From assembly GCF_000003815.2 (NCBI RefSeq), contig NC_049989.1, positions 19,603,165 through 19,667,164 of the forward strand: a stretch of 64,000 nt of DNA. The letters run 5' to 3'. Below are positions 375 through 28,123 of the stretch, in pieces; the stretch's first letter is position 1, and every line of letters starts with the position of its first letter. Both the position numbers and the translations under genes were made by a program. This DNA is from Branchiostoma floridae (Eukaryota > Chordata > Leptocardii > Amphioxiformes > Branchiostomatidae). The notes beneath the pieces were generated by a model. The model saw only the letters and a list, made by a program, of their open reading frames with translations. It searched no databases and was not told where the DNA came from.

Positions 375-1378
375 CGACTTCCTCAGTGTCGACCCCGGCC
401 TCCTCCAAGACCGTGTCCAATTCCTCAACTTGCTCCACAATGTTTTCCGTCAGTTCCTCTACTTCCTCACTGTCACCGGTTTGGACAGCTTCCAATATAT
501 CATCAGCATTCTCTTCAACTTCGTCCTGAGTTCCCTCTGTGACGAGAAGAACATAACATTCAAGATTCATTTGAGAGTAAAATGATACGTGTGTTTACAT
601 GGTAGAATAAGAAGTAATCTTTTGAACACCTGAATAAAGCGTCACCTACTCACCAGCAACTTGAGCTGCGGCAGTCTCCTTCAGTTCGTCTACAGCCTCT
701 ATCAGTTCTGCTGCGGCTTGTTCCTGTTCCTCTGGTGTACCAGACTGCATAACGGATTCCACCTCTTCTATTTTCTCTATAACCTCGTCTTGCAGTTCAA
801 CTAATATGATGAAAACACGACATACGTTAGGATTTATGTGCACAGAGTGAGTACTATTGTCAGTGCCTGATATGAATATTTTGTCTATACATCCAGCGTT
901 CAATTAACATTAGGTTTTGTAATTAAGAACACAGTCAAAACTGAACATCAACAGATCGTTAAATATGTGACGAATTACACATTTATATACACTTATATAT
1001 ATTTTTTTCAACATTAGATACGCGCAATTGGATTTATTGGTAATTTGTAATTGCAAATGATTTGAGAATCGGAAACATTCTCATCATTCTGCACCTGAAC
1101 CAAAAGTGTAGTTTCCCTTATGGTCATTTATGGAAGCCTGGATCATAACAATAATTATTGATGAAAAATCATGATCAATAAAACGCTGTCGCAGTTATAG
1201 TACAGAGAGCACTCACCGACTTCTTGATTGTCAATGTCAGCCTCCTCGAAGACGGATTCCAATTCCTCCACCTGCTCAGTGAGATCTTCTGTTAGATCCT
1301 CCACTTCACCGATGTCGCCGGTCTGAACAGCTTCCAAAAGATCATCAGCGCCTTCTGCCACCACGTCTTGAGCTTCCT
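375..1378 (-). CDS. Distal acidic helical-hairpin exons (exons 37-39)
   Basis: Three phase-1 exons at 1217-1378, 654-800 and 375-536 (54, 49 and 54 residues). Exons 37 and 39 are close relatives: both read EEAQD or EGTQD, then ADD(I/L)LEAVQTGD, an ELTE segment, EQVEELE or EQVEELD, and end EVG. Exon 38 is more diverged (VELQDEVIEKIEEVESVM). Glu/Asp/Ala/Val composition with heptad-like spacing predicts helix-turn-helix units. These belong to the same repeat class as the 7.3-17.4 kb array and suggest the array resumes after the Pro-rich part and continues past the window edge. Confidence 0.75.
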
Positions 1379-4300
1379 CTGTGAAGAACGAAACAGTTAT
1401 GTTATGAGATAAATATTATGATTCCTCTGAGAGTGAAAGGACGATGCGTTTACAGTATGGACTATAGCTGCAGACAGCCAGGCTCGTATACGTGAACCAA
1501 TCGTGCTCGTAATATTCGTTTACTGAGAGGTACGGTTTAGGTCCAGAGGATTAGGTCCCGGTCGGGATGTAAATACAAATAGATTTTACAAAGAGGTATT
1601 CAAAACACCAAAAGCAAAGCTGTAAGATTCAAAACACCACAGCATACAGACGGTTACAGGGATGCTAATCTCGGATTATGTACGCCATTGTCCAGAACAG
1701 GGGTGGGTACCGATACAGAAAATTCAGGTGCAGGTGCGATCTAGGTCCAGAAAACTTGTGAATGGGCGATGCGCAAAACAATAGTCCATTTAGCTATTAA
1801 GGATTCTGTTTGGTGACCTCCACTAGCCTTAAAACCCTATCTACATGTAAACAACACTAACAGCACTGTGATGGTACCCACACCTAGTCCTAAAGTTAAA
1901 AATCACATGGAAATGTTGATGAAAAAAGAGACACTTAATTGACACAATAAAAAAAATGGAGGATTTGTTACGAATTGAGAATCAATATTGCAAGCTATGC
2001 TCACCAGCTTCTTCCTGTGCTTCTTCGATTTGTTCCTGTTCCTCCTCCGACTCAGCTGACTCTCCTGAAGTAAAGAAACACTCTCATCATTCTGAACCAA
2101 AAGCGTCGTTTCCACCTCAATGGGGAAACTTGGAATTGCATTTTCAGTAATGTTATGCGAAGAAGATCACGTGATATGTCGAGCAATGGCTCATAAATTG
2201 AAAAAAATGTATTCAAGAGATAGCTTTAAAAGGAGTCATGTCCTCCAGAAAGACTATAACCTCCCCTTATCTTGATCAGAGACTATGGACACCGTAAACG
2301 CTCTACAACACGTGATCCACACCTTTCTATCTACATAACGTGACGATACACAAGTTGGTTGCTCAATTTTCGGTAAAGACAGGAGCCGTTGAGTTTTTCC
2401 CATTGAGGAAGAGCAGTTTAGTCTTACTTCAGAATGATACACAGATAAAGTTTTAAACAAAGACATTTTCAGTAGTAGCCAATATGTTAAAAGTATCACA
2501 ACGTATATCTTAGCCCTGCATTCTAAGACTTGCTGACCTTAACTCGACAGTTGATTATTAGATTCCTTACCATCAAAAGCACTTTTTCTCATCAAAGACA
2601 AGAGAGAGTTTTCGATGATAATGTTTACCTGATGTGATTTCAGTTATAGATACTCCAGGTTTCCCCACAAGATCTTCAAGGAGTGCCTCTAACTCCTCTT
2701 CACCTTGGCTGCCGGGTACTGTTAACACACATGGGTTATCTTTATCTCACGTGATATGTATACGTAGGTCACATTACTGTTTGCATTGGTAGAGTATGCA
2801 GAAAGTCATATGATACTGTCGTTTTCTACGGTGCGAATTAAGGCAAAGCTTGCATTAAGTTTATATCGCTTTTTGAATATGCCAAGCAGGGCCCCTACCA
2901 ATTTCAACCGCTGGCTGCTGTGCTACCGGCACCGGCAATGGACCTAAAAGAAAACAAGAACAGCTACAAAAAGCATCTGCGACTAACATTATTAACTAGT
3001 CAGCCTACATGTTTGCTTAAAAACATTTTTATTGCTTTTATCATAATTAACTTAACTCACCTTTCATGCACCAAAAAGTATGTACCTTACATGACAACAT
3101 TGGCAGATATTTTATCATATTCCACAATACATTTTCTGCTATGAGCTAGTGTTATATCGCTATTTGAATATGCCAAGCAAAGCCCCTACCAATTCCAACC
3201 GAAGGTTGCTGAGGCACCGGCATTGGCTTAGGACCTAAATCAAAACAAGAACAGATACAAAAAGCAAAGCTCTACAATCAGCAATAACAACTACTAGTAC
3301 TCGGCACACATGTCCTCCTTTGTAATAGTTCCAAGCTCCTTTTCGTGCGTGCTAGCAAGCTAGCAAGCATAATCAATAAGCAACGTAACTTGTCTTTAAT
3401 CAAATATATGTATCACACATGTCAACTTTGGCATAATCTACAATACCAACAACGTGGCATTAAGTTAAAAAAACACGGTCGTTTTTCTACTTGTCGATAT
3501 GCTAAGCAGGGCACCTACCAATTCCAACGGCTGGCCGCTGTAACATTGGCTGCGGTCTACGACCTAAAAGAAAACAAAGCATCTAAAAAAGAAACTGCAA
3601 CAAGAAATATCGACTACATCTCTTCATATGTGAACAAAACATAGTTAAAGCTCTTAACTGTGCGTGCTTATAACTAGCAAGCTAATCAACTTTACCCACC
3701 TTTCTTTAACCAAGATCTCAGGGGTATTCACCTATTATCTCACCTTTGAATGCAATGATTTGGTTGTTGATGATCTGAGGCGCCCCCTCCCCCTCACATC
3801 CACCACAGGCACTGTCTGCAAACAGATTCAAGTCCAGGATCACGTCATAAGATGCACGTTACAATGTTCAAATCTTACTACTGCCAAACTTGCATGAGCG
3901 ATCACTGACAGAAATTTTACAGTATTCACAAATCATTTTCTTTATTGATTCAACATACATAGACATAATGGTAGCCTGAATGGCGTTTGAATTTACAACA
4001 GACACATAACCTACTCGGTCAGCATATGTACATCAAAACAATATATATATATAGAATAGTATACAACATCATGTGCAAATGTACATGTACATTTATTTAC
4101 ATGGCAATACAGGTAAATAGAATTAAAGACCATTAACTTTGGAATCATTGTGTTTGTCCTGTCTTGTCCTTTTTACATTTTTTAATTAAGAAGACCACTT
4201 GTCTAAGAAGATTAAACCATTTTATATAGGTCCCCAATATGGACGTCTTATACAGGTTTAACTGTACTGTGTATGCAAATTCAGCGTGATCCAGTTTGAG

Positions 4301-7214
4301 TTTATTGAGATGCCCTTTAGCTCAGATTGAGCTAATCTCCCGGTAGGGCTCATACAAATAAGAAGGCATACAAAATATACACATACATAAACAGATACAA
4401 TAACATCCACTCAAAACAGATCAGACTTACATACAAATACACATTAAGTCTGATATCACGACTGAGGTCAGAGTTTTATATACACTAAAACCATTATGAT
4501 CCGTAAAATTGATGTAACTAACAAACCGGCCTACCAAGAACGGTGATCTGGTTGTTGACGATCTGCTTGCCCTTCCTTCCCGGTGAGCCAGGGACGCCTG
4601 GCTGTCCTGAGTTTGGACCAATCACAAGATTGACACCATCGGGGAGGTTTCCAGATGTCAATTGCTGCCCAATAGCAGAGCCTGTAACAAAGAAGCAGAT
4701 CTCATATCTCGGGTATCAGAATAGTTTGGACCAATCACAACATTAAAACCATCGGGGAGGCTTCCATATGTCAATTGCTGCCCAATAGCAGAGCCTGTAA
4801 CAAAGAAGCAGATCTGTTATCTTGCGGTTCAGAATATTTGCAAAAGTCTTACTCTTCGGCTGACATTTTCCAACATTTTAATTTCATTAAGATTTGAATG
4901 CAAATAGCGTTTTTCGCTAGTGTATCTAATTGATGAAACATGACATTACGTTAATCCTGTATATTTCAGGAAACATGGTTCACTTGATAGGTGATTGAAT
5001 ATGTATTTGAATAGGGTACGGAGAAAGCGTAAAGTCAAAACTCACCAGGGTGATTGGCATCTCCGATAATTAAGTTGACACCTCCTGTTGGGAAAGACAA
5101 GTAGTTCATCATTTGTGGCACAGTTTCGTATATGCCTAACTTCAACATCTCAAAATGTGCTTGGGTGACGTAAACTATAACCTTCCTTGAACCTTGAACG
5201 TGGACTTCAGGATGCCTTCATGCGAGGGAATGACTTCGTTGCAAAATATATCTTACAAAGAAAATATATCCTACATACAAAATATATCCTACATACAAAA
5301 TATATTCTACATACAAAATTTATCCTACATACGAGCATTAGAAGAGGCTTGTTTGTAATTACCTGTCTGGGATGGCCTCTGGGGTCCTGTAGAAAAAAGA
5401 AAATAATCAATATTGATGAGAAGATTGGTACAAAATGTATCGTAGTCTGATATGGACTACAGGTTCTGAGGAAAACATAATTATATGATTATGTTTATGA
5501 TTCAGATATTTGCTACAGTCTAAGAAGCACTTGAAATAATAAAAAAACATTGTATTGTACGACATACTAACTTTTTACGTGTTTTTTTTCGATGGAACAT
5601 TGGTCATCTAAAGATACCTGTGTTTGATCTATTGAAAAAGTTAGCGGCTTTGTTTTCTTTAATGCTAATTACACAAAATCAAAAAGAACAACTTTGAAGT
5701 GTGGTAAATATCTTACGTTGAGGAATCCCCGGTATCTGTGGTCGAGGAACGACGGGTCTTTCCATCGCAACAGCTACAGAGTAAAAGAAATTAATACAAC
5801 GACATCTTATGATTTTAAATTCTTCATGCAACATGAAGTCCTGTTGTTTACATATTAAGTATGAAGGAAATGCCACCAGTGATTTTTTGACTCAGTGGTA
5901 TTTGTTTTACACTATTGCAGTTCATGCAATCGTTTTGTTGATGACTATGATTTTTTATTTGAAATGGATCTCTTTATCGATGAAATTAGTGGTTGTGTTT
6001 GCCCGCATGCTAATTATACAATATGAATGTAAAAATTCGGTAGTTTGGTATATCTCACGTTGAGGAGCGCCTGGCAGCTGTGGTTGAGGGGCAAGCGGTA
6101 GCGCTGGCTGTACAAGAGGTTCGCCCACCGCCTCAGCTACAAAGCAAAAAATTATAATTCTACACTATTCTAGTTTGCAAAAGCAAAAAGCTTTCACTAG
6201 AAGCCTATATGATACAGATAAATCTGCAAAATATTACTAAGTCTAAAAACAAATGAATGAAAGGCGAATGGTGACGTAAGGCTGTACAACTACGACAGCA
6301 TACAGATTAGCACAATTCAAGACAGTTCTTCGCTGGTCTGAAGGCATTGCATGGTCTCTTGGAAAGCAAAATGACCATGAATGAAGGAGTGTCAAGCAGG
6401 CTTCTCCTTTGATAGGCTCTGAACACTGCTGTGAGGTGATCGCGGCATCAAACTTCACTCATAACTGTCAGTCTAAAATGCAGTTTTCAGAACTGCCCCA
6501 CTTTATGGCTGGGGAACATGGACTCGATACAAAAAGGAACGAACAGCACCGGACCAATTTCGCCTCCACTGGCTGCGTAAAACGTGAATAGCACCTGGAC
6601 TGACACCTACATTTACGCAATACTGGGTAAAGCCCCTCGCAGGGCATCGCGCAAAGGGAGTGAGGTGCCGTATAATGACCGATGGTGGTGGTTTCAAACA
6701 AAACGGTGAAGTGACAACGAAATCACAACAAAAGAGGAAGTGCGGTCCTAAGCATCGTGGTTTGCTAGGGCATAGCGTTGGTCCTACATCTTGGCAGAGC
6801 TGGGGGTAGCCGTAATGCCTGGCTACACCAGGGATTTCCCATTTGATTTCATCATGAAAACGCAACTAAGACTGGTGATGCAGACAACATGGACAACACA
6901 CAGTGATCTACTGTGAGCTTGCTTCTGGCAAAAGAATCTGACACCAGCATTACTGTCGTCTGCTAATTGCGTGGATGCATCTATGCCTCAGGCTCAGCGT
7001 TTGGGCTGCGGTCACAATATGTTATTACAGCTTCGTCTGGTCTCCAACTAGGACCTGCTAAAAGCTAATGAAAAGGCCGTGGCTTGGCTGCAGCACTGGC
7101 ACGGAACGATATCATGATGTTTGGAAGATGACATTCCATTCTCTATACATAAAGTACAAAATTAGAAATGTTTCTGTCGCACATTGTGCAATTATACGAC
7201 TGCGTGTTTGCTCG

Positions 7215-7262
<48 letters not shown>

Positions 7263-10200
7263 CGCGTGTTTTATTGTCGCTGCTGTTGTTGTTGATCGGT
7301 TGGTTACGAGTCTTGCGACCATGGTTTTTCATGTCTTACATTCTGCTTCTTCCTGGACCACCACCAGCTCCTGTTCCAGTGTCTGCGCAGCTTCCTTGAT
7401 CTCTTCAGAGTCTCCGGATTCCGCGGCCTGCTCCACCTCAAGGATCGCCGCCTCGACTTCACTCACCAGACCCGCTGAAACCGAGAAAATATTTCGTTTT
7501 GTGATATCGCGTATTCACAATAGAGAAAACTGTAGTGGTTCGGCTACGTGTCTCGTTAATCAAAATACAACCCAACAAGACCAAAGCATATCTACGACAA
7601 AATATCCTTCGAGATCATGATCATCATTATATTTGTATATCATTATTATCATCTTATGGTATTTCGCAGGACATGCAAGCACAGTGTCACGATCACGCTC
7701 ATACTCATACACACTGTAAAAGCCACACCTCCATTTTCTAAATGTAGGTAAGGACAAAAGAAGATGCTGTGATAACCACGTGGGGAAAAAAAGGTGGACT
7801 TGTGTGCTTACGTTGTTGCTCATTGAGGATATCTCCTGCTTCGCCTGCAACTATCTGTTCAAACTCGGCCTTGATCTCCTCCACTGCCTGCTGCACCTCC
7901 TCCTCGTCACCCTCTCCCAGAGATGTGAGGTCTGGAATCAGCTCCTGCAACTCGGACGCTGTGTCTTCAGCTAAGGTAAAACACAAATATTGATACGATT
8001 GAATTACAGAGAGCTGCTCATGGATCCAAAACTTTCAAACCGCATTCTATACCCACGAAAATTGCTTGTATCATAGAAAGGAGTCTAGTAGCGCCTGCAG
8101 CTCGTCCGCTGTGTCTTCAGCTAGGATACAACACAAGGGTGGATACGATTGAATTACAGAGAGCTGTAACTGGCTCTAAAACTTTTGAAGCGCGTTTGAT
8201 ACCCGCGAAAATTGCTTGTATCATATACCAAAGGTGTCTAGAAGTAGTATTTTGAGGTCGTATGCTGTTTCTTCAGCTAGAATAGAACAAGGGTGGATAC
8301 GATTGAATTACAGAGAGCTGCACCTGGCTCCAAAACTTGAATTGAAGCACGTTCGAAATTCTATACCCAAGAGAATGAATAGAAGTAGAGGGGGGGGGGG
8401 TCGTATGCTGTGTCTTCAATTAGAATACAACACAATTTATATATAAGTTAGGAATTCTTCTGTAAGTACCTGTTTGTTGTTCCTCTGCTTCCTCCACGGC
8501 AGTCTCCACGACATGTTCAAAAGTTTCCATCTTCGTCTCCAACACCTCCGCCAGCTGCTCGGCCCTCTCCGTGTTCTCTTCTTGAATAGCTTCCTTCATC
8601 TCCCCGGCAACTTCCTCGATCTCTGCCTGCACAAAATCTGTTGTAAGACAAGGTGGAAGAAAAGAAGGTTAGTTGATGATTGATATTCAGGAGTAGGATA
8701 TATGGCAAGGTAGTCGTTTAGTAAAACTTAGCCCCCATTTCTGAAGTACGGGTGAGGAGGATGAGTCTTGCTGGGCATTCGTGGAGAAGCAAAGGACAGA
8801 CTAGAAACTGAACATACAAAAATGAAAAATCACCCACCAACTTGTGGTGTATCCGCGCCAGCATCCTCCGCAACGGACGCCACTTGCGCTATGTCCTCAA
8901 TGATTTGCTCAACCGTTTCTTCGGCTTGCCCAGTATCACCTTCGCTCAGATCCTCCAGCACATCTTCCAAGGCGTCCTCAGCTCCCTCTTGGGCAACAGC
9001 TGTTGGTCAAAACATCACAGTCACATGCTTTTGGGACTTCTGGTATAAGATGATGATGAACTAGTATCTTAACTATATATACATTAGTAGCCTTTGTCGC
9101 AATATTCACCGGCGCCGTCACATTCGTAGTAGATCGTCGTGAACATTCTAAAAATTGCCCAGCAGGCAATGAAAGAACCAAACACCTTCAAGAATCTTTG
9201 AATAGAGCCTTGTCGTAAAGAAATGCTGAACTTTGTGAGAACGTTATCAGTTTAACTCTTGTGGTGCTGGGAAATTTTCATTATGAATTTTCCTAATGTT
9301 TGGCGTTTTAGACCCTTTGGAAGGTACCGTTTTCACTATGCTACATTTTTGAAGGGTAGAGACTTTAAGCTTTGTAATGATATTATTTGGAGTAAAAGCA
9401 AAAAAAAATATATCATAGTTATAATACTATAATATGCTTCCCAACATATGTTGGGCGCAGTGTTAAATAAGGGTTTTAAGATCGTAAATCGGTCGTCACG
9501 AACCTTGCTCCTCTTCCTGCTCAGCCTGCTCAGTTTCCTCCTCAAATTGCTGATTGAAGTAGTCTACTCTCTCCTCCAGGGTTTCCAGCGCCTCTTCCTC
9601 CTCAGACGTGCTGCCGCCAGCTTCCACAACCTCCTCGAAAGCTTCGGCGGCGGTCTCAACAGCCGTCTCAGCCGCCTCTGTTGGGGTGATTGCAATCAAG
9701 TAAAGTTGTCACAGAGAAAGCGTACAGACGAACAGACTTTACAGAAATCCCTGAAGAGTTCCAACAGGTATGCTGTCCTGTTCTACTTCTTATAGATATC
9801 AGCAATTTGCACAACAACAACATCCTACCGTGCCCCTCCTACTCCAGGGATCCACAGCTCATAACCTCTCCACAAACAAACAAGTGTCCGATGCACTACA
9901 TTCTTACATTGTATCAACTAAAAGATTCCAGCTGTGCCACCCTTCTACGAACCACAAATAGATATTTCTCTGATTTTAATTGTATTGTATTTATTGTATG
10001 ATGATGATTATGATGTATTGTACAATGACTATGTATGTCCCTCAATGTGTATGCTGCACAACATCAGCATCTTGCTGCCTGGTGCAGAATATTGTATTGT
10101 ATTTGTCGCTATCCAAATAAAGTCAAAGTCAATTTGCACAGCATATATGCATTGACGTGTAGTTGTCCGTCCTTACATATAGATGTAAGAAAATGATTTT

Positions 10201-19200: not shown

Positions 19201-22200
19201 CCCGAATTGATAAAACAGGAGACGGTATCTTACCTCCCTCTGCAACGCCTTCGATCAGGCCTCCGACACCGCCTGCTTCTCCTGTGACAGTCATACCTCC
19301 TCCTGCTGCTGCACCTCCTCCGAAACTAGCTCCACCTAAAACAAACAAACAAACAAACAAATAGGTTTGCTGTCAGGACACTCAATAAAATTACAGCACA
19401 CAGGTAAGAGACAAAAAGATCTAGATATTTGTTCACACTAAATAAAGAATTCTTTAACGTTATTCTACAGTCGATCACCATTTCATATGTCAATTATGAT
19501 TCAACTTGAGAAGTTACATGAATAAATTGAACACTTGTATGCGTGGTCCGATTGCAATTCACATAGCACAACATGTAAGGGTCAAGACAAAAAACTATAA
19601 AGTCCAAGTTAAGCAAAGTTACTATGTATTTTGTACATCTTACGGACCCTTGGCCTTATGTTACATAAGACTACAACCTGTTGACAACTATCCGCCGGAT
19701 AAGACTCCTGTACCTGGGCCACATTCTCCGCATGGACCCGTCCAGACTGGTCAGACGTACCCTGAAGGCCTATGCGAGCGGAGGAGGAAACCCGCCTGAA
19801 GGTTACTTGCTGATGGATTTCGAACATTCGACCTTCGAACAGTTAGCTGGACAAGCTAGAAATAGACTGGCTGTGGACTGCTAGAATTAATTACCAAAGT
19901 TACTGAATATGAGCACCCACCGCCGACGGCATTGATGTCCAGCCTGAGGGCGATCCCAGCTCCGCCCCAGGTCACAGGACGGAAACGGAAGTAGCGAGCC
20001 GAGATGATGGTTCGAAGCGTCGTGACCTGGATCCCACTGTCATCACTGTTTCCTTCGCAAACCTGTGGAACAAGAAAATGGCAAACACTTTGGGTTTCTC
20101 GGTCGCAGAGGGCTCACTGTCCATAAGGTTATATGTTCAGAGCAATTGTATTGATCATCCTAAAGGTGATATAAATATTCGACTGAAAACTCGGATAAGA
20201 AGCACCAAGCACCAAAAACAGACAAGATTTTGATCTCGGAAACTGGTAACGCTAGTTTACCTTTATCCATGGGGTAAGAAACATCCGTTGTTTTCTTTAA
20301 AACATTAAGCGATATCACGTCGACGGACAGTGGTTCCAAACTGCTATATTTTGAAACCATTGCAATTTGAAAGTACCATTCGTTGACTTGACATCCGAAA
20401 TACAACGAATATAGGTTACTCCTTGGATAAAGGTAAACTAGCGTTAGTACGTAGTAATATGGCACATTTGGTTGAGGCGCTTTATGCTAGAGAGATGATA
20501 CTCTTGCTTCTCTTACTATGTCTTGACCAGCATCGTCTTGGTATGTCGTCCACGTGGCGCCATCGTCGCTGTACTGCAGGTGGTAAGTCTGAACCCATCG
20601 CCCGGCTGCGCCCTGGATGGACACCGAATAGATCTGGAAGATGCCACCCAGGTCGATCTGCAGGTACTGGTCCGCGTCGTCAGTGGCAGGGGCCCAGTAG
20701 GCGGCCGAACCGTCGTCGTTTGTCTGGCCGATCACGGCGTACCCGGCACCGTGCTGCTCGTCAAGGGAGGAAGACGCCGAGAACCACCCGAACTGGAAGT
20801 ACTGCTTCAGCGATATCGATGCTGCAGATACAACAAGAATGTATTTTCGTCCATATTATACAGTAGAAGCCGCTTAATTGCACGGCCTATTTACCAGTGA
20901 ATTTAGTGCAATTATCCGGCTGGTGCAATACTGCGAAGTTATTTAGCTGGACCGCACCGGTTTGGGATTTTGGGATTCCGTGCAGTTCCGTGCAGAAGTG
21001 TGCGTTAATCCGTTGTGCAATTAACTGGCTTCTACTGTACATTAAGATATATCTCTATCAAGAAATTACAACTTAGTATAATTATTTGAACGCTTGAATA
21101 AATTGAACGCTTTAGCGACAAGTCTGGCGAAGAAAACATAAGCCAAATTTCCTAATCTCCCAGCAGATTGTACGGTACCATAAGATAATATCAATCGCTG
21201 GCAGAGAAATGACACCGGCCTATAAGTGTGTATATCTACCGGAATCATACACACTTCTAGGCCGGCTTCACTCCTCTGCCAGTTTTAGATACTATCTTAT
21301 GCTACTGCACGATGTGCTTGGAGATTAAACTTTCCATCTTAATTGGTCCTTTCTCATCAGCAGGTCTAGAAAAACGTTTGCCAACTATTTTCTTGTCTCT
21401 ACGTTTCTTACCTCCCTCGGCAAGACCTTCAAAGATGCTTCCTCCTGATGATGACCAGCTCCAACTGCCTCCTCCTGACATGCCGTGCCCTCCAGCTCCT
21501 CCACCGGCTCCTCCGGACATGCTCCATCCGTGTCCTCCTGCTCCTCCTCCTCCTCCTCCAGACATGCTCCACCCGTGTCCTCCAGCTGATCCTCCTGCTC
21601 CTCCAGCTCCTCCAGCTCCTCCTCCTCCTCCTCCAGACATGCTCCATCCGTGTCCTCCAGCTGATCCTCCCGCTCCTCCAGCTCCTCCTGCTCCTCCTCC
21701 TCCACCAGACATGCTCCACCCGTGTCCTCCAGCTGATCCTCCAGCTCCTCCAGCTCCTCCTCCTCCTCCTCCGGACATGCTCCAGCCGTGTCCTCCAGCT
21801 GATCCTCCACCGGCTCCTCCTGCTCCTCCTCCTGCTCCGGACATGCTCCATCCGTGACCTCCACCTTCTCCTCCTGCTCCCCATCCATGACCTGGAAGTA
21901 AATGAACAAAGTTTGCTTGAAAGTTCATCTGTATTTGGTAGAAATTAAGATTGGACTATGACCAAAAAAAGACTTATCGTCTTCCCAACTCCAGTTTTCA
22001 GTAAATAAGCTTTGAGGAATCCTCCACTTTTGTGACATCATTTTGTAAACACCTGACTCGATAGGCGTCGGATCCTGGGTTACAGAAAGTTCATGGTTCA
22101 CCCATCTCTGTTAATCTAGGAGATGGTTATGAGGTCCTAGCGTAAATGTCTTCTTTCACTCCCTTTAAAAAATTCGTGATTGGTTTGCTTATTCCTTGAC

Positions 22201-25200
22201 AAACATCTAGGATAAGTCCATTTTTATGTTTGAAATACAGTACCACTTTACGTGTGTGTGTTAATGAACTAGACGGAGCATTTTAAGAGTGCTGACCTCC
22301 CCCAAGATAGCTTCCTCTTGTGCAATTACCTGCATCCTATGATATACTATATGCCTTCTACCGGCAAGCATATTTCTAATAACATCGCAGCTTTTACATT
22401 CATTCGTTGGGTACCATTACCATGAACTAGCTTGCGGGCAGCCGTGACTACTACATACGCTAGCGATTGTAGCTTCTCTGGTATCCTACGGATGTATTAC
22501 ATTGCCACTACAAGACGTCTGGAAAACAAGTCCATAACATGCTTCCGTCTACATCTGATGGAAAAAATAGCCCAAAAGAAAGTTGTTAGCTCCAAGATGA
22601 TAATGAAGAGGCTGCACGTGCATTCCCTTACAAGCAGCAAACTCTACATGCATCTTGCAACGTTTCCAATTGAGCGATATCCTGTGCAATGTCGCTGTTG
22701 TGAAGAATGGCTCATATACCTTGTCCTTGGCCGCTGTGACTGCCGGGTCCATGTCCATGACTGCCGTGGCTGCCGGGTCCATGTCCATGACTGCCGTGGC
22801 TGCCGTGGCTACCGGGTCCATGTCCATGACTGCCGTGGCTCCCGGGTCCATGTCCATGACTGCCGTGACTGCCAGATCCATGCTCATGGCTTCCGTGTGA
22901 CTTGCTGCCGGGTCCATGTCCATGACTGCCGTGTGACTTGCTGCCATGTCCATGTCCATGACTGCCGTGGCTGCCGTGTGACTTGCTGTGGCTGCCGTGT
23001 TCCTTGCTGCCGTGTGACTTGCTGTGGCTGCCGTGTTCCTTGCTGCCGTGTGACTTGCTGTGGCTGCCGTGTTCCTTGCTGCCGTGTGACTTGCTGTGGC
23101 TTCCGTGTTCTTTGCTTTTTGACTTGCTTTCCTTACTTTCTTTGCTTTCCTTACTTTCCTTGCTTTTGCTTTTGCTTTTGCTTCTCTCTTCAAGTTCTAG
23201 AAAAATTGTCACAAACCACATTTCAGTAGGTTTTTAGGGATAAATCTATTTCTGGCTAGGGATAGAGGACTAAAAATCTCCACCGGTTTAACCTTTTGAC
23301 AGAGAAAAAAATACATTTGCTACTCAGCCCTGCCAATGATTCTATAAGTTCTCTGTATATATGTCATCTCAACAATTGTTGAATTCAAAGATTATAAGAA
23401 TACAATTTAGGTCGCAGCGATTTACGTCTTGTGGAATGGTAACCTTACAGAAATGAATGAATGACTGGTTTATTAGCACCAAACAAGTTCGCATATACAT
23501 GACAGCCATGTACATATCATTGCAGCCATACTGAATTGGTGTATAATACATTAAACATTTGTTAAAAACTTCATTAAGATCTACACCTAAACTGTGTGAA
23601 GTTGTCCTTTGTACGTAGTTCCCTGTCATGAAAACTTCCCCGTTTCGGGGGTAACCAGCCAGAGAATAGTGGAGACTAATAAGACACAGACAATGCAAAT
23701 CTCAACAGAAATGACATAAACATATTACCATTATCCCTTTTGCCATGTTCCAGTCCGTCCTTCAGGGCCTCGTCCAGCGCGGACAGCTCCCTGAGTAGCT
23801 CATCTTCAGTCAGAGAACGTCTCACACGGTCAGAGTTCTGTATACCTGCATGAAACAATCACCCACATGTTTTAGTCCAAAAAGCACTCCAACCGAATGG
23901 TATATAACTAGAGAACGGCTCATGCGGTCAGAGTTCTGTATACCTGCAAGGGGGGTGGAGTGGTGTGAAACAATCTTTAGTCCAAAAAGCACTGCACATG
24001 ATATATAACTAGAAAGGCAACATTTTTACAAAAATGCAGAATGTTTTCCCTCTAGCCTTGTGTCAAGCTAGTACTGTAGCATTAGGCTCGTCATGAGCTG
24101 AGTCGTGAGGACATTACAATAGGTACCGGCGGGGCTAAATCGCAAGGGTCTGGAACGACTGAGATTGGACGATAACTCGGGTGAACTCAATACGACAGTA
24201 ATTACCCCAGCTGCGGCCATATGACTGTAGGTTTTGAACCACTCACTCTTTTCGATAAGTGTGGTGGGTTCTCCATTGAAGCTTTCTTAAAACATGACTT
24301 AGTACTTGTAAAGTGCCTTTTCCAAGGGCGAAAGATCGGTGGATGGATCAATGTACTAATATTTGAAACTTGTGCCCGTGGGGTATGGCCAAACGTCATG
24401 CCAGTACGCCACACGACTCCAGTAAATCAACAAGCCTAACCACAAGGCCACTTTAACAAGCAGGGGACGTAAAACTTGGATTGTATGGGTCCCCGGGGAC
24501 GGCAGGGTTCTGTCAGTCTCAACAAAGCAAGCTGGTCTTTAGACTACTGCTGGGCTATGTTTGTTTTGTTAACAACGTGGAGTATTCTATTAATCTCCCC
24601 AGGCACCCTCTGAATAATATATGGCTAAATATAATGTGCTTTACAAGGCCTGGAAAATTTCAGGTACAGAAGTTATTTCAGAGCGATAAGAAGAAAAAAA
24701 CGCGTATTGTTCTGCGTTCTTTGATATATTAGCAACAATCCTCCTTGCAGTGCTTATCGCCCCGCAAAATATCCCCGACGAAGAAAGCGTCTATACGCAC
24801 AGGTGATGCATACTAAGTAGGATCTGCATGGAGGATCGTATTGTTTTACAAAACACAGGTCGCGCAGTTCGCCACGAGTGGAATTCTGCAAAAATTCTGC
24901 TGATTATTCATTGATACATACAGGCCCTCGATTGGAAAATAACACCATGTTCTGGAGTAAAATACACCTCTTTCTTTATGTTCAAATGTTTCTGGTTGGA
25001 ATTTTGTATCATAGTAATAATACGTTGGAAATACTATGTCTTGGTGTCTAGAATTCGTGGTAGAGAGATTGTTCGCGAAAACCGGGAGAATTTAACCAAC
25101 GCAGACATATTAACGATTACCGTATCAACACTGTCAACATGATGACCTATGAGGTGTCTAAGTAGGCGTTGCCTTAAGTACATTACTGACACCCTGTGCA

Positions 25201-28123
25201 CATGGGCAGATACGCTTAGTTGTCTGCAAAGTATCTAGACGTTGTGATGATCGTAAATTTAGACTATAAAATGGAGTCAGCGTCAGAAGTGCGCATATTA
25301 TGTCACTGTGACCTGTCGTCTTAGGTGTACTTGTAATTGATTCAGTTATTTTGATGTCTACATGTAACAGATAAAGAACACAGATGTTCTGCCGCACGAC
25401 GTACCTGATATTTAAAAGAAATCAGTGTTCAAATATTTTAATGGCATATATTTTCATATGGATTGGTGCCCTATATTGTTTTAATGTAGTACAGTGGAGT
25501 TGTGATGTTCAGAACAATTCAGGATGTTTCCAACTGGACATTCTGCAAGTCTGTACCATCTGAATAAAACTTGTCAAACTTGTGTAAGATGCCCAAGAGA
25601 TCTAACAACAAGTACAGTCAAATCTGCCCAAGACGACCACCCGGGGGACCGAAAAAAAAACGGTCGATTTGGACAGGTGGTCGCTGAGAAGAGTATCGAC
25701 TCAAAACATGCCCGATGCAAAGTATAAAGTGGTTTCCGTTGTGTTTACTGGCAAACAGCAAGCGCATTGCACGCACGCAAAGAAGCGAGGTCTCGACTAA
25801 TGTCAAATACAACACGCACACTGTAAATTGTAAATTTAACCCCAAGCTTTTATCGAGGTTTTATACGATACGGTGTTTTAAAGCTCAATATTTGTACACA
25901 AACAAGCATTTATGCGTCGTTGTGTTCTTGATCACCTTATCTGAAATAACTACGGTACACCTTTCGAATTCGATACCCGGTACGTCCCGATAGCGTACTT
26001 ACTCACGGGTGAATGTGCAGTGTAGTTGGACAAAATTTAAAGCACTCACACAGATCTTTCTTAATAAGCCTAGCGGCTTGCTCTGGTTGTACACGTTTTA
26101 GAAACTAAGGCTAGCGTTGTCAGCCATGATCTACGGCAAATTTCCCGGGCACAAGAAATGTGCAGTTTGTACAAAACATCCACGACAGACACAAGATTTC
26201 CATACATGTCCTGCCGTATGACGGACGTGGCACGGCCCTCAGCCAACGACAAAAAGGGCACCACCGTATTATCTTCCTCTGACTTGGTGTGCAGACAACT
26301 CACATGTATAGCCGGAGGGAAGGCGTATCCTTGTTAAATCAACACTTAGTCATTGAGTTTACGCCATGCACTGCAGACAACACAGATAGAGTCCCCCCAT
26401 ACTGCCCTTAGGGGGAGGGGCTTTTCCGTGCGGGTAAGATACCTTCAACAACGGTTAGGCCATTTTTACATGAGATAACATTACCATAATCTCTAACTGT
26501 TACATACAGTCCTTATGGTGTTTGTTTTTTAATTACTAAAGTGATGCACAAGACAAACCAACTCATTCAACCTAATAGTAATAGGCTTACAACGGTGAGA
26601 CATTTTAGATATAATCTGCTGTCTATCAAAATTGTCTGGCAAAAGGTAATAGATGCTATCTAAAATGTCTGATTGTCTATAAACACGTTGTCTAGTTGCT
26701 TGAGTAACCTTTATATTCCATGACCTGGATGCCTTACCTTCATCAACGTCCTTCAATTACATATATTGTGGGGTGGGGTCGGAGTCTTTCATAGAAAACT
26801 TACTCAAACTTTGACTCAAGATGACCGCTTAGTCCCTCACAATAACCTAAAAGTACAGTCATAAACATATCCGTACCTTTCTATTGTTGTGCTCAATGCA
26901 GAGTGCAAACACCACATTAAAACACAAGAAAGTTTAAGACTAAAGGCATTGTTTGCTAATCTAGAAACAAATTAACTAAGGGTTCCGTGTATTTCAAATC
27001 TTTCAAATGTTGTCAATTTTATGACGTATGACAAGAAAAAACATAAACTTCATTTACGTTTAAAAAAACTTTTCGATATTTTCTGAAATAAAGTTTATTT
27101 CTTTTTATCGAGGATGAAACTTTGTGACATTTCAAATCGTTGCCAGTTTCCGAAGCACTTGAAAATTTGACACCAAAAGAATTTCTCATTAAGTATTCAA
27201 AACATGCATATCCTGGGCTCGTCGTCGAGAGCACATAAACACGGCACAGAATGAGATAAAACTGAATTTAACAATAATTTTACAGTTACCTGCTTTAAAT
27301 ACGACATCGACAAGACTACGCATTTAGTCGGAAACTTGAGAGAGTATTGCAAATTATACTATATTTTTTGGGTATTTTGCGGTCATTTTCGTTAAAAAAA
27401 CGTAGTCGAAAGATTTTGATGCCGTAGGGTCTTCAAGCAGGCTGTGACAGAACCAACTTCTAACAAAGACCAAAAATAAATCTCCAGTGTCTCCTGGCTG
27501 TAATCTGTCCTTTNNNNNNNNNNNNNNNNNNNNNNNNNNNNNNNNNNNNNNNNNNNNNNNNNNNNNNNNNNNNNNNNNNNNNNNNNNNNNNNNNNNNNNN
27601 NNNNNNNNNNNNNAAGACAGTTAAATCTTATTGGACGTATGCCTGACTTTCCCAACAGTTCCCTCATTTTGCAATCGTGCGACTGTCGTTCGACGGAGGC
27701 AACTAAACCCTTGCACCCACTCGCACTACGGCTATATTTCCTCACGGACTCAGTAGCATCGCCTAATATGGTGCCGGCACATTCGTCGTAGGACGTCGTA
27801 TGTTGTCGTAGGACGTCGTATGTTGTCGTAGGTCGTCGTATGTATGGTGTAGAATTTTTTTAAGCAGGCTGTGACAGAGCCAACTACCGGCTAGGTTGTA
27901 AGTCAGACTTTCTTGTCAGAAGACGGCTAAGAATTTGCAGGACACATGAAAGACTATCCAAAGAATACCCCAGCCTGCAATCGCACGGCGTACATGAGTG
28001 AACGGACCCTTAGGCGAACTTGAGTGAACTTGAAAAATAGAAATGTTTCTCTCTCTTACCTGGGAGTGAGCTGACCGCCAGCACCCCCAGTAGTAGGATC
28101 AGACACCGCACGTAGAACCCCAT
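375..28123 (-). CDS. Giant secreted mosaic protein, 5' part (39 exons; 3' end outside the window)
   Basis: I do not recognise a named family. The start ATG at 28123 has a strong context (GCCACCATGG) and opens a signal peptide, MGFYVRCLILLLGVLAVSS. Exons in order (minus): 28060-28123, 23729-23845, 22720-23196, 21412-21891, 20517-20821, 19921-20062, 19234-19335, 18488-18792, 17854-17995, 17273-17446, then the acidic array to 7340, Pro-rich and Gly/Asn exons to 2899, and 2629-2718, 2005-2064, 1217-1378, 654-800, 375-536. Every junction is phase 1 except the phase-0 junction inside each F5/8C pair, and the summed length (5,935 nt) stays open for about 1,978 residues. There is no membrane segment after the signal peptide. 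I infer an extracellular structural, matrix, mucus or coat protein that is acidic overall, with a His-rich and a Gly-rich block near its N-terminus. It could be two genes if an internal promoter exists, but the uniform phase and the absence of an internal stop or second signal peptide argue for one. Confidence 0.8.
2005..2718 (-). CDS. Acidic linker exons 35 and 36
   Basis: Exon 35 (2629-2718, 30 residues) begins VPGSQGEEELEALLEDL and ends EITSG. Exon 36 (2005-2064, 20 residues) is almost pure Glu/Gln/Ala (ESAESEEEQEQIEEAQEEA). Both have clear acceptors (TTAACAG, TACTTCAG) and donors (GTAAAC, GTGAGC) in phase 1. They bridge the Pro-rich block and the distal hairpin exons. No function can be assigned beyond an acidic, probably flexible or helical linker. 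Confidence 0.65.
2860..3575. repeat. Three tandem exon-plus-intron repeat copies
   Basis: Direct repeats of about 290-330 bp carrying the 45-nt Pro-rich exon and its intron borders. All three exon copies keep open frame and both splice signals, so all may be used. Confidence 0.75.
2899..3563 (-). CDS. Triplicated 15-residue Pro-rich exon (exons 32-34)
   Basis: Three 45-nt exons at 3519-3563, 3190-3234 and 2899-2943. Each begins after a TTTTAG or TTTAG acceptor with a GT that completes a Gly codon and ends at a GGAATTG or GAAATTG donor (GTAGG). Products: GRRPQPMLQRPAVGI, GPKPMPVPQQPSVGI and GPLPVPVAQQPAVEI. Flanking intron sequence is also shared: a 'TTTGAATATGCCAAGCA' tract next to each donor and AAAACAAGAACAG next to each acceptor. 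The exon and its borders were therefore duplicated together, with spacings of 291 and 329 bp. Pro/Gln-rich spacers of this type are usually extended and non-globular. Confidence 0.75.
3744..5084 (-). CDS. Gly/Asn-rich exons 29-31 with repeated GVNLIIG and INNQI motifs
   Basis: Exon 29 (5046-5084) encodes GGVNLIIGDANHP. Exon 30 (4535-4681, 49 residues) encodes SAIGQQLTSGNLPDGVNLVIG, then PNSGQPGVPGSPGRKGKQIVNNQITVLG; its middle has a few Gly-X-Y triplets like a very short collagen stretch. Exon 31 (3744-3815) encodes DSACGGCEGEGAPQIINNQIIAFK. Two short motifs recur: GVNL(I/V)IG in exons 29 and 30, and QI(V/I)NNQI in exons 30 and 31, so this part also grew by duplication. Exon 31 has the only CxxC motif I saw in the large protein. 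Splice phases are all 1. Confidence 0.65.
4611..4830. repeat. 113-bp tandem duplication including a broken exon copy
   Basis: The segment containing the 5' half of exon 30 and its acceptor is repeated at +113 bp (acceptors at 4682-4683 and 4795-4796). The upstream copy, from 4794, reads GSAIGQQLTYGSLPDGFNVV but has no convincing donor. Reading straight on meets a stop in the second copy, so it looks like a non-functional exon relic. Confidence 0.75.
5246..5335. repeat. 18-bp minisatellite, about five units
   Basis: Repeats of the form TATCCTACATACAAAATA lie in the intron between exons 28 and 29. They are contiguous, without spacers. Both strands are open by chance; this is not coding. Confidence 0.85.
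5363..6136 (-). CDS. Pro-rich exons 26-28
   Basis: Exon 26 (6059-6136, 26 residues) encodes SEAVGEPLVQPALPLAPQPQ then LPGAPQ. Exon 27 (5717-5773) encodes VAMERPVVPRPQIPGIPQ. Exon 28 (5363-5386) is only 24 nt and encodes RPQRPSQT. Acceptors are TTTGTAG, TCTGTAG and TTCTACAG; donors are GTGAGA, GTAAGA and GTAATT. The shared PQxPGxPQ ending of exons 26 and 27, with similar flanks, points to duplication. The block separates the first hairpin array from the Gly/Asn exons and is probably an extended spacer. Confidence 0.7.
7208..7266. repeat. (TG)n microsatellite
   Basis: A run of TG dinucleotides with minor CG interruptions in the intron between exons 25 and 26. Confidence 0.95.
7340..17446 (-). 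CDS. Array of 16 acidic helical-hairpin exons (exons 10-25)
   Basis: Exons: 17273-17446, 16562-16726, 16121-16282, 15581-15751, 14968-15129, 14382-14552, 13422-13583, 12531-12701, 12023-12184, 11353-11523, 10366-10524, 9504-9677, 8838-8999, 8470-8637, 7812-7970, 7340-7474. Lengths are 159-174 nt except the last (135), and all are phase 1 at both ends. Each encodes about 55 residues dominated by Glu, Ala, Leu, Val and Gln: a helix, a turn such as QTGD, AAGN or EGED, a second helix, and a terminal Gly codon split by the intron. Many start with an ACAG acceptor followed by a Glu/Ala-rich EAA, EDA or EVA. Exons 12-15 and 16-19 are pairwise paralogues in the same order (QAGLAAGNP, ALQTGDRE/ALETGDRE, the SETI helix, AAIQNE), so four exons were duplicated as a block. 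I infer a rod-like or coiled repeat domain, strongly acidic and possibly able to bind calcium; no EF-hand or other known motif is visible. The exon 21 donor (GTTCGT) is weak. Confidence 0.82.
7955..8420. repeat. About 150-bp tandem repeats carrying fragments of exon 24
   Basis: The segment that contains the 5' edge of exon 24 and upstream intron (marker GATACGATTGAATTACAGAG) recurs at 7992, 8142 and 8295, with a partial fourth copy near 8402. Each copy keeps a piece that resembles the exon 24 acceptor and its first codons (CTGAAGACACAGC), but only the copy at 7970 leads into a full exon. Confidence 0.8.
9930..10128 (+). mobile_element. Possible LINE-type 3' tail remnant
   Basis: An AT-rich tract with TATTGTATTG tracts and an AATAAA near its end (CCAAATAAAGTCAAAGTC), preceded by a short frame ending in a stop. 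It resembles the 3' end of an old retroelement insertion in the intron between exons 20 and 21. No reverse transcriptase is seen. Confidence 0.3.
14013..14135 (-). mobile_element. tRNA-derived SINE remnant
   Basis: On the minus strand there is an A-box-like TGGCGCAGCGGTAGCC and a strong B box, GAGTTCGAATCC, at tRNA spacing, but the acceptor stem does not close and the similarity runs into flanking non-tRNA sequence. It lies in the intron between exons 15 and 16. Confidence 0.55.
14204..14346. mobile_element. MITE-like foldback, CTCCAAGC family
   Basis: The ends are exact inverted repeats TAGTCTCCAAGC and GCTTGGAGACTA, and the arms continue with imperfect pairing (GGCAAAGGAGTATAGC against GCTATACAAGTCCCTTGCC). 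No coding capacity. Related elements occur at 21157 and 29858. Confidence 0.75.
16410..16480 (-). mobile_element. tRNA-like remnant
   Basis: On the minus strand a tRNA-like layout ends with a B-box-like AGTTCGATTCCCG and a central CTTGCATTC loop. Stem pairing is imperfect, so I treat it as a tRNA-derived relic rather than a working gene. It sits in the intron between exons 11 and 12. Confidence 0.4.
17854..18792 (-). CDS. Second F5/8C-like (discoidin) domain, exons 8-9
   Basis: Exon 8 (18488-18792) and exon 9 (17854-17995) join in phase 0. Family hallmarks are visible: GYAVIGKTYDDGSAAYWAPA, DQYLQIDMG, LSSLTIQGAAGRWVITYYL, RYSADGITW, then CEGNSDDSGTQVL, ARYIRVNPLTWGAGGIGVRL. F5/8C domains are beta-sandwich modules that bind membranes, glycans or collagen. 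Only one Cys is present, so the classic terminal disulphide is missing. Exon lengths (305 and 142 nt) equal those of the first copy at 19.9-20.8 kb. Confidence 0.88.
18050..18190. mobile_element. Diverged fragment related to the 20859-21040 foldback
   Basis: Shares the GTTAATTGCACAACGGAT core with the reverse complement of the element at 20859-21040. Ends are not clear. Confidence 0.4.
19234..19335 (-). CDS. Gly/Ala linker exon 7 between the two F5/8C domains
   Basis: A 34-residue phase-1 exon encoding GASFGGGAAAGGGMTVTG and ending GGLIEGVAEG. The ending matches that of exon 4 (SIFEGLAEG), so exon 7 looks like a short relative of the Gly-rich exon and forms a duplicated unit with the domain that follows it. 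Acceptor TTTTAG, donor GTAAGA. Confidence 0.8.
19921..20821 (-). CDS. First F5/8C-like (discoidin) domain, exons 5-6
   Basis: Exon 5 (20517-20821) and exon 6 (19921-20062) join in phase 0 (donor CATA/GTAAGA, acceptor CCACAG/GTTTGC). Motifs: GYAVIGQTNDDGSAAYWAPA, DQYLQIDLGGIFQIYSV, QGAAGRWVQTYHLQYSDDG, then CEGNSDDSGIQVTTL, ARYFRFRPVTWGGAGIALRL. The two domains share most of their hallmark positions and both have a single Cys. Such domains commonly tether secreted proteins to cell surfaces or matrix; the ligand is unknown here. Confidence 0.88.
20859..21040. mobile_element. MITE-like foldback with CAGTAGAAGCC ends
   Basis: Terminal inverted repeats of about 25 bp: ACAGTAGAAGCCGCTTAATT at the left and AATTAACTGGCTTCTACTGT at the right. 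It lies in the intron just upstream of exon 5. No coding capacity. Confidence 0.75.
21157..21324. mobile_element. MITE-like foldback, CTCCAAGC family
   Basis: Near-complete foldback: the arm starting CTCCCAGCAGATTGTACGG pairs with the arm ending GATGTGCTTGGAG over about 75 bp, with AAGTGTGTA against TACACACTT at the centre. It sits in the intron between exons 4 and 5. Confidence 0.8.
21412..21891 (-). CDS. Gly-rich exon 4 with GGHGWSMSGG repeats
   Basis: A 160-residue phase-1 exon. It contains six GGHGWSMSG(G/A)G units spaced by GGGGAGGAGGSA-type spacers, flanked by a variant HGWG at the start and HGMSGGGSWSWSSSGG near the end, closing with SIFEGLAEG. Gly exceeds half of the residues and Trp, Ser, Met and His recur at fixed places. 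No known domain. Comparable Gly-rich, aromatic-spaced repeats occur in silks, cuticle and adhesive proteins, so I infer a structural or self-assembling segment. High GC and internal repetition make the other frames open as well; splice phase and signals fix this one. Confidence 0.85.
22720..23196 (-). CDS. Lys/Ser then His/Gly/Ser repeat exon 3
   Basis: A 159-residue phase-1 exon. It starts ELEERSKSKSKSKESKESKE, continues with about four copies of KEHGSHSKSHGS, and then HGSHGHGPGS-type repeats to the end (HSGQGQG). The acceptor is TTTTTCTAG and the donor CAAG/GTATAT. His recurs every two to four residues, a pattern known to bind Zn or Cu and to change charge near neutral pH in histidine-rich proteins. 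The function here is inferred only. The mostly SK/SH/GS low-complexity sequence is likely unfolded. Confidence 0.85.
23729..23845 (-). CDS. Exon 2: short segment bounded by RVRR and GKR processing-type sites
   Basis: This exon joins the signal peptide exon in phase 1 and encodes GIQNSDRVRR, then an acidic amphipathic stretch starting SLTEDELLRELSALDEAL and ending KDGLEH, then GKRDN. RVRR fits a furin-type site and GKR fits a dibasic site preceded by an amidation Gly, so a 24-residue amidated peptide could be released. This is prediction from motifs only; the same segment could be a propeptide or simple linker. Acceptor CATGCAG, donor AATG/GTAATA. Confidence 0.75.
23815..24015. repeat. 98-bp tandem duplication of the exon 2 border
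   Basis: The 5' part of exon 2 and its acceptor are repeated at +98 bp (marker CAGAGTTCTGTATACCTGCA at 23831 and 23929). The second copy keeps an acceptor (TTGCAG) but its reading drifts (RMSR in place of RVRR) and no donor follows. Confidence 0.75.
24200..24440. mobile_element. SINE-like remnant in intron 1
   Basis: Contains GTGCCTTTTCCAAGGGCGAAAGATCGGTG, a body similar to copies near 31400 and 53110, beside a diverged tRNA-like end. Boundaries are uncertain. Confidence 0.35.
27514..27613. other. Assembly gap (100 N)
   Basis: Exactly 100 N, probably of nominal size. It lies in intron 1 of the large gene. Both sides hold copies of AAGCAGGCTGTGACAGA (near 27434 and 27864), so a repeat probably caused the gap. 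Confidence 0.98.
27784..27846. repeat. About 21-bp tandem repeat (GTCGTAGGACGTCGTATGTT)
   Basis: Three imperfect contiguous units near the gap, in intron 1. Non-coding. Confidence 0.85.
28060..28123 (-). CDS. Exon 1: signal peptide of the large gene
   Basis: Start ATG at 28123 in the context GGCGCCACCATGG, followed by a hydrophobic core (LILLLGVLAV) and ending in phase 1 at a GTAAGA donor. Upstream, towards 28200, a TTTTTCAG could be the acceptor of a 5' UTR exon. No TATA box is obvious. Confidence 0.85.

Follow-up and report, generated by a model that had tools for sequence, protein, structure and literature searches.

A giant mosaic gene of phase-1 exons in Branchiostoma floridae, with arrays of acidic hairpins and a possible role in a secreted gel or coat

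Structure and extent of the gene

The window, meaning the whole stretch of 64,000 nucleotides of Branchiostoma floridae DNA that was analyzed, corresponds to C11:19603165-19667164 in a searched genome of 513,431,437 bases. On the minus strand of the window, 39 exons running from position 28123 to position 375 join into a single open frame of 1,978 codons with no stops (Table 1), which is exactly the number of phase-consistent exons in one open frame that an earlier note on this DNA had counted. The model was rebuilt exon by exon, with AG/GT borders chosen as such, and its phases agree. Phase 1-1 is found in 34 of the 39 exons. Exon 1, with the predicted signal peptide, is 0-1, and the four exons that encode F5/8C domains form 1-0/0-1 pairs, so each F5/8C domain is still a symmetric unit.

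The gene is cut by the window. Position 375 is not its end, and the frame extends past the left edge, where a 40 kb flank was used for extension and 37 further exons (exons 40-76) lead leftward to G000:C11:19579549. The extended model has 76 exons, 3,791 residues (402 kDa) and no stops, and spans ~52 kb (C11:19631287 down to 19579549). It contains 30 acidic hairpins and eight F5/8C domains, compared with 19 and two inside the window, for which the earlier count of two F5/8C domains and about 19 hairpin units was right. Left of the window, the model gains a further 11 hairpins and six F5/8C domains with small linker exons between them, as well as two acidic Glu/Pro exons. The length is divisible by three in 59 of the 76 exons, with the donor of the last exon unseen, and of the 75 introns (median 448 bases) only the first is longer than 1.5 kb. 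The C-terminus of the model is not closed, as the final basic exon abuts a 196-base run of N. One candidate for a terminal exon, which follows a strong acceptor at 19578736 and has a reading of 44 residues with AATAAA lying 70 bases beyond its stop, was not convincing.

In a strand control, the minus strand of the region yielded 21 clusters of open 1-1 exon-like segments of at least 130 nt and the plus strand two, at thresholds passed by 21 of the 33 modeled exons of that length and phase; the splice matrices were trained on the gene's own minus-strand exons, and the comparison is biased toward that strand. For this reason, duplicate exons were also checked for protein-like evolution. The dN/dS ratio was 0.09-0.53 in 15 comparisons of duplicate exons, which are a subset of the possible pairs and include one pool of eight others, and dS was saturated (2.27) in the comparison of the Cys modules. 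On the evidence of the sequence, the locus holds a genuine gene of large size whose duplicates are conserved, and its general kind, the secreted phase-1 mosaic, is known.

Table 1. Exons of the gene model, in window coordinates except for the last row
Exon	Content	Position	Strand	Remark
1	start codon and predicted signal peptide (MGFYVRCLILLLGVLAVSSLP)	28060..28123	-	
2	short putative propeptide, furin-type RVRR, then 24 residues up to GKR	23729..23845	-	
3	Lys/Ser, then His/Gly/Ser-rich repeats (45 Ser and 36 His in 158)	22720..23196	-	
4	Gly-rich repeats with GHGWSMSGG	21412..21891	-	
5	F5/8C domain 1, first part	20517..20821	-	
6	F5/8C domain 1, second part	19921..20062	-	
7	second Gly-rich exon	19234..19335	-	
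8	F5/8C domain 2, first part	18488..18792	-	
9	F5/8C domain 2, second part	17854..17995	-	
10	acidic hairpin	17273..17446	-	
11	acidic hairpin	16562..16726	-	
12	acidic hairpin	16121..16282	-	
13	acidic hairpin	15581..15751	-	
14	acidic hairpin	14968..15129	-	
15	acidic hairpin	14382..14552	-	
16	acidic hairpin	13422..13583	-	copy of exon 12
17	acidic hairpin	12531..12701	-	copy of exon 13; unit folded with AlphaFold
18	acidic hairpin	12023..12184	-	copy of exon 14
19	acidic hairpin	11353..11523	-	copy of exon 15
20	acidic hairpin	10366..10524	-	
21	acidic hairpin	9504..9677	-	
22	acidic hairpin	8838..8999	-	
23	acidic hairpin	8470..8637	-	
24	acidic hairpin	7812..7970	-	
25	short acidic hairpin (44 residues)	7340..7474	-	
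26	Pro-rich linker	6059..6136	-	
27	Pro-rich linker	5717..5773	-	
28	Pro-containing microexon, 24 nt	5363..5386	-	
29	GVNLIIGDANHP	5046..5084	-	
30	GVNLVIG motif, short Gly-X-Y stretch, IVNNQI motif	4535..4681	-	
31	CGGC and IINNQI motifs	3744..3815	-	
32	Pro-rich linker	3519..3563	-	
33	Pro-rich linker	3190..3234	-	
34	Pro-rich linker	2899..2943	-	
35	short acidic exon, helical-looking	2629..2718	-	
36	short acidic exon, helical-looking	2005..2064	-	
37	acidic hairpin, second array	1217..1378	-	
38	acidic hairpin, second array	654..800	-	
39	acidic hairpin, second array	375..536	-	
40-76	beyond the window	G000:C11:19603169 down to 19579549	-	exon 40 reaches into the first bases of the window

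Head, F5/8C domains, linker and tail

The start codon of exon 1 lies in GCCACCATGG and is followed by a hydrophobic core (3.31 in a Kyte-Doolittle window) and a phase-1 donor, the sole ATG reading of this type between ~17 and 31 kb of the window. Across the whole gene, such readings number four on each strand; the core of exon 1 is the strongest on the minus strand, and one plus-strand reading is higher (3.73). Since the ATG scan performs no better than its plus-strand control, the case for a signal peptide rests on the start context and on the in-phase join to exon 2, from which the N-terminal signal peptide expected of a secreted protein is predicted. A furin-type site (R-X-K/R-R) occurs once in the 3,791 residues, at residues 28-31 and a few residues past the predicted signal peptide, and suggests that a propeptide is removed. 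The 24-residue stretch of exon 2 from RVRR to GKR looks helix-like by eye and has the layout of an amidated peptide. Exon 2 was also considered as an amidated peptide hormone precursor (parathyroid-type or other) and this was rejected, with no Pfam family above cut-off and a best PDB sequence match at E 2.5. About 100 bases upstream of exon 2, its start recurs as a diverged second copy (window 23845-23943). In the head that follows, the 158 residues of exon 3 include 45 Ser, 38 Gly, 36 His and 19 Lys (net charge +9), and exon 4 has Gly at 86 of 159 positions and repeated GHGW motifs.

The eight F5/8C domains are arranged in groups of two and six that flank the hairpin arrays. Compared with Pfam PF00754 (gathering score 28.2), copy 1 scores 92.1 bits (E 3.9e-26), copies 3 and 4 together, in two stretches, score 152.1 bits (E 1.1e-44), and copy 7 scores 68.5 bits (E 7.7e-19). 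The remaining four of the eight copies share 72-96% residue identity with the four tested in Pfam, and as a sequence assignment F5/8C is certain. Among the six copies beyond the arrays, two match the first F5/8C exon (copy 1) at 63% and 62% identity. When this exon was used to search the genome, 124 matches were obtained with 150 of the 342 candidates scored, and six strong same-strand copies lie left of the window. Outside the locus, and among the same 150 of 342 candidates, the best F5/8C exons by E-value are six exons at C10:13689387-13697798 (ranks 1-5 and 7; 36-43% identity).

In automatic exon readings, the region around these six exons (G000:C10:13678000-13707999; L013-L015) contains long Thr-rich exons or repeats, WxxW modules, repeated F5/8C and VWD/TIL. 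Of eight readings scanned with Pfam, the four that come from this region match known families (Mucin2_WxxW, 6.7e-22; VWD, 4.5e-07; TIL, 1.7e-14; F5/8C, 5.7e-25), which points to a mucin-like gene of the gel-forming type. Although this gene holds the F5/8C exons nearest by E-value among the candidates scored, it has Thr-rich stretches, WxxW, VWD and TIL, whereas the gene described here places its charge in protein helices and has almost no N-sequons.

Between the two hairpin arrays lies a Pro-rich linker with a short collagen-like stretch (exon 30). A 113-base tandem duplication (window 4610-4840) repeats the start of exon 30, with its NLVIG motif, without the collagen-like end. In the tail, a two-exon module whose Cys are conserved (LDCAKWSEWL...ACK and VWCTD...C) occurs twice, and a Gly-containing exon lies between the copies. 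Directly upstream of exon 76 are three partial copies of its own acceptor region (L005, ~6480-6830, minus strand).

The acidic hairpin arrays

The 30 hairpins are 44-59 residues long, with one exon per unit. Their 1,619 residues include 451 Glu and 112 Asp (563 acidic) compared with 19 Lys and seven Arg (26 basic); Pro amounts to 0.6%, and neither Cys nor Trp occurs. The whole model has one N-glycosylation sequon, so the charge lies mainly in the chain, and 18 Cys in 3,791 residues, one of them in the signal peptide. For the exon 17 unit, the only one folded, AlphaFold predicted two helices at residues 2-19 and 22-55 (pLDDT 93.4, pTM 0.67) using an alignment of the 19 window units, in which one row, owing to a start-codon convention in translation, begins with M where the exon has V. 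The hydrophobic periods of the two helices are 3.55 and 3.50, with an amplitude near 3.6 that was reached by 0 and 16 of 2,000 shuffles, respectively.

The arrays carry traces of growth by blocks. In the first array, mean residue identity is 0.41 at a lag of four units compared with 0.23 for neighbors, and in the second it is 0.70 at a lag of two compared with 0.28 for neighbors. The block of exons 12-15 recurs as exons 16-19 with 68% residue identity, and for some copies the DNA similarity continues into introns. The hairpins of both arrays can be aligned with each other.

Pfam and NCBIfam searches with 19 of the 30 hairpins gave nine families at E<=0.01 (five and four, respectively), each in one of the 19 units and with a best E of 0.0018. 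The two families with stated cut-offs fall below them, and assignment to a known repeat family was rejected. Spectrin-type repeats are similar in being tandem helical units with heptad-like spacing, but a spectrin repeat has three helices, whereas the hairpin has two, within 44-59 residues per exon and without Trp; the Spectrin repeat family (PF00435) was rejected, as its scores of 13.4 and 11.9 bits fall short of the 29.9 required. A profile search of PDB sequences found 21 at E<=1, mostly designed helical proteins, and the one match below 0.001 (2ncj_A, E 1.8e-4 over 45 residues) may reflect common helical composition. When the hairpin fold was compared with the PDB using Foldseek, 0 of 387 matches reached E<=0.001. 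Three hairpin queries against the genome gave 2, 8 and 5 matches, all within this locus, and queries with the linker (2 matches), the Gly-rich part (3), exon 2 (1, itself) and the Cys module (2) gave none outside it; the sensitivity of these queries is limited, as one hairpin query found eight places where 30 units exist and the Cys query missed the second Cys copy, so more distant copies may be present elsewhere.

The earlier proposal, a secreted mosaic that grew as symmetric phase-1 exons were duplicated, is supported by the signal-type start, the single furin-type site, the exon-block repeats and the DNA similarity into introns. That the hairpin belongs to no recognized family agrees with the Pfam, NCBIfam, PDB-sequence and PDB-fold searches, weak helical matches aside. 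The protein as a whole matched no known one in the searches made, but it is not altogether unfamiliar, since secreted adhesives with several F5/8C domains, nectin and Sfp1, are known. The reading of the product as an extracellular material seems moderately strengthened by the composition and by the finding that the nearest F5/8C exons belong to a mucin-like gene.

Possible nature of the secreted product

The preferred reading, tentative and with a probability of about 0.4, is that one giant gene encodes a secreted structural protein that acts as a polyelectrolyte gel or cohesive coat. The hairpin arrays would be stiff polyanionic spacers that hold water and cations. Ca2+ and low pH would condense the arrays in secretory granules, and release would lead to swelling with water and cations. 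Glycan polyanions in mucus condense and swell in such a manner. The F5/8C domains could anchor the ends to glycans, lipids or mucin-like partners, and the His/Gly head and Cys tail could join molecules via metal-His contacts and disulphides. The arrays appear to have been lengthened by tandem duplication, four exons at a time in the first and two in the second, without loss of frame because the exons are phase 1-1.

Several observations weigh against a gel. The head encoded by exon 3, with a net charge of +9 and 36 His, falls far short of what would neutralize the arrays, which makes self-coacervation alone unlikely, and its 45 Ser could be modified, with a change in the charge of the head. 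No mucin polymerization domain was found in the segments scanned, and VWD, TIL and WxxW had no match there (segments that leave out four F5/8C copies, the right-array hairpins and the unclosed C-terminus). The Pro/Thr/Ser-rich region of gel-forming mucins was rejected for this protein, as Ser, Thr and Pro together reach at most 34 per 100 residues, with the peak at the start of exon 3, where there is no Thr. Arrays of acidic helices would also be compatible with a scaffold that forms no gel or with a store of Ca2+.

A bolder form of the gel reading, which is unlikely when taken as a whole, sees a protein-only counterpart of mucin, in which a lancelet lineage swapped glycan charge for an expandable, Lys/Arg-depleted acidic hairpin array. 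Growth by exon-block duplication, swelling, and cross-linking via the terminal discoidin domains would together give a tunable secreted hydrogel. No description of this protein or of such a hydrogel turned up among the papers listed by the literature searches, which does not mean that none exists, and public records could well contain a prediction of the gene.

Discoidin domains recur in secreted cohesive and adhesive proteins (PMC7037938), and there is a small chance that the product is secreted, like nectin and Sfp1, as an adhesive or cohesive material, either temporary or permanent, in which F5/8C domains would bind cuticle and substrate glycans and the acidic arrays would be cohesive spacers. 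Its echinoderm precedents are sea urchin nectin, which has six discoidin domains and 108.3 kDa and is secreted in adhesive, and Sfp1, a protein of 426 kDa with discoidin domains, and also VWD, C8 and EGF among others, that is thought to be cohesive (PMC7037938). The eight F5/8C domains found here favor it as well. Nectin is similar in having several F5/8C domains in one secreted protein, but as described there it is made up of its six discoidin domains, whereas here eight are combined with hairpin arrays, a His/Gly head, a Pro linker and a Cys tail. With the eight grouped as two and six among large other modules, a nectin-type architecture was rejected. Sfp1 is similar in being a giant secreted mosaic with discoidin domains (426 kDa compared with 402 kDa for the unclosed model here), but it is described with VWD, C8 and EGF, whereas only discoidin was found in the segments scanned here. 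Against an adhesive, there is no strongly Tyr-rich stretch (67 Tyr in 3,791 residues and at most eight per 60, with the peak inside F5/8C), VWD or EGF was not matched in the parts scanned, and nothing here implies an adhesive organ.

As for charge, polyanion/polycation pairs have been suggested to condense in adhesive granules (PMC4275877). The sandcastle-worm cement described there (basic Pc-1/Pc-2 and acidic Pc-3) is similar in pairing a polyanion with a polycation. Its partners are separate proteins with phosphoserine, whereas here one chain has Glu/Asp helices and a far smaller cationic part.

It is also doubtful that the protein forms an internal or cuticular matrix, an egg coat or a sclerotized structure, with a His/Gly head that binds metal as in hard metal-bound biomaterials. 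The 36 His among the 158 residues of exon 3, the repeated GHGW of exon 4 and the short collagen-like stretch in exon 30 are consistent with it, but the body of the protein is a hydrophilic polyanion, from which known hard His/Gly materials differ.

Two or more genes in place of one are improbable. The split would be between a 5' part (head, two F5/8C domains and hairpins) and a 3' part (six F5/8C domains and Cys modules), with terminal exons within introns. Because almost every unit is 1-1, agreement of phases does not by itself tell one gene from two, and hydrophobic ATG readings run into exons 67 and 72, with one more inside an intron. However, such readings are equally many on the plus strand, the short introns leave little room for terminal exons, the arrays are built of alignable units, and the copy 1 F5/8C exon resembles two copies on the far side. 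A role in immunity is very improbable. The protein would then be a secreted opsonin or trap, with F5/8C domains for binding microbes and the polyanion array to entangle them. Although F5/8C domains can be lectin-like and a NACHT-like segment and Kringle exon readings lie nearby (and need not be related), the duplicates look conserved, not diversified, and nothing further speaks for this role.

The gene appears to offer a clean case of symmetric exons being put together into a large extracellular material, and its repeat module has no convincing Pfam, NCBIfam or PDB family match in the scans done. If the reading as a gel is true, it would be a genetically encoded polyanion gel made from a simple protein repeat, of interest for the origin of secreted gels and as a design template. 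If the gene is expressed in the pharynx or endostyle, it would bear on filter-feeding mucus near the base of chordates.

Elsewhere in the window, Kringle-type readings (PF00051) are found at 39850-40191 on the minus strand (2.1e-24) and at 56738-56998 on the plus strand (3.8e-23), and a third, judged by eye, at 57702-57995 on the plus strand. A reading at 44602-45162 (minus strand) has a P-loop and scores 24.5 bits for NACHT over its first 120 residues against a cut-off of 26.7, as in innate immune receptors. A weak F5/8C reading lies at 50843-51247 on the plus strand (19.9 bits against a cut-off of 28.2). Two arrays of 186-base units, at 53775-54324 and 55684-56168, are ~1.4 kb apart, and their consensuses look mutually reverse-complementary.
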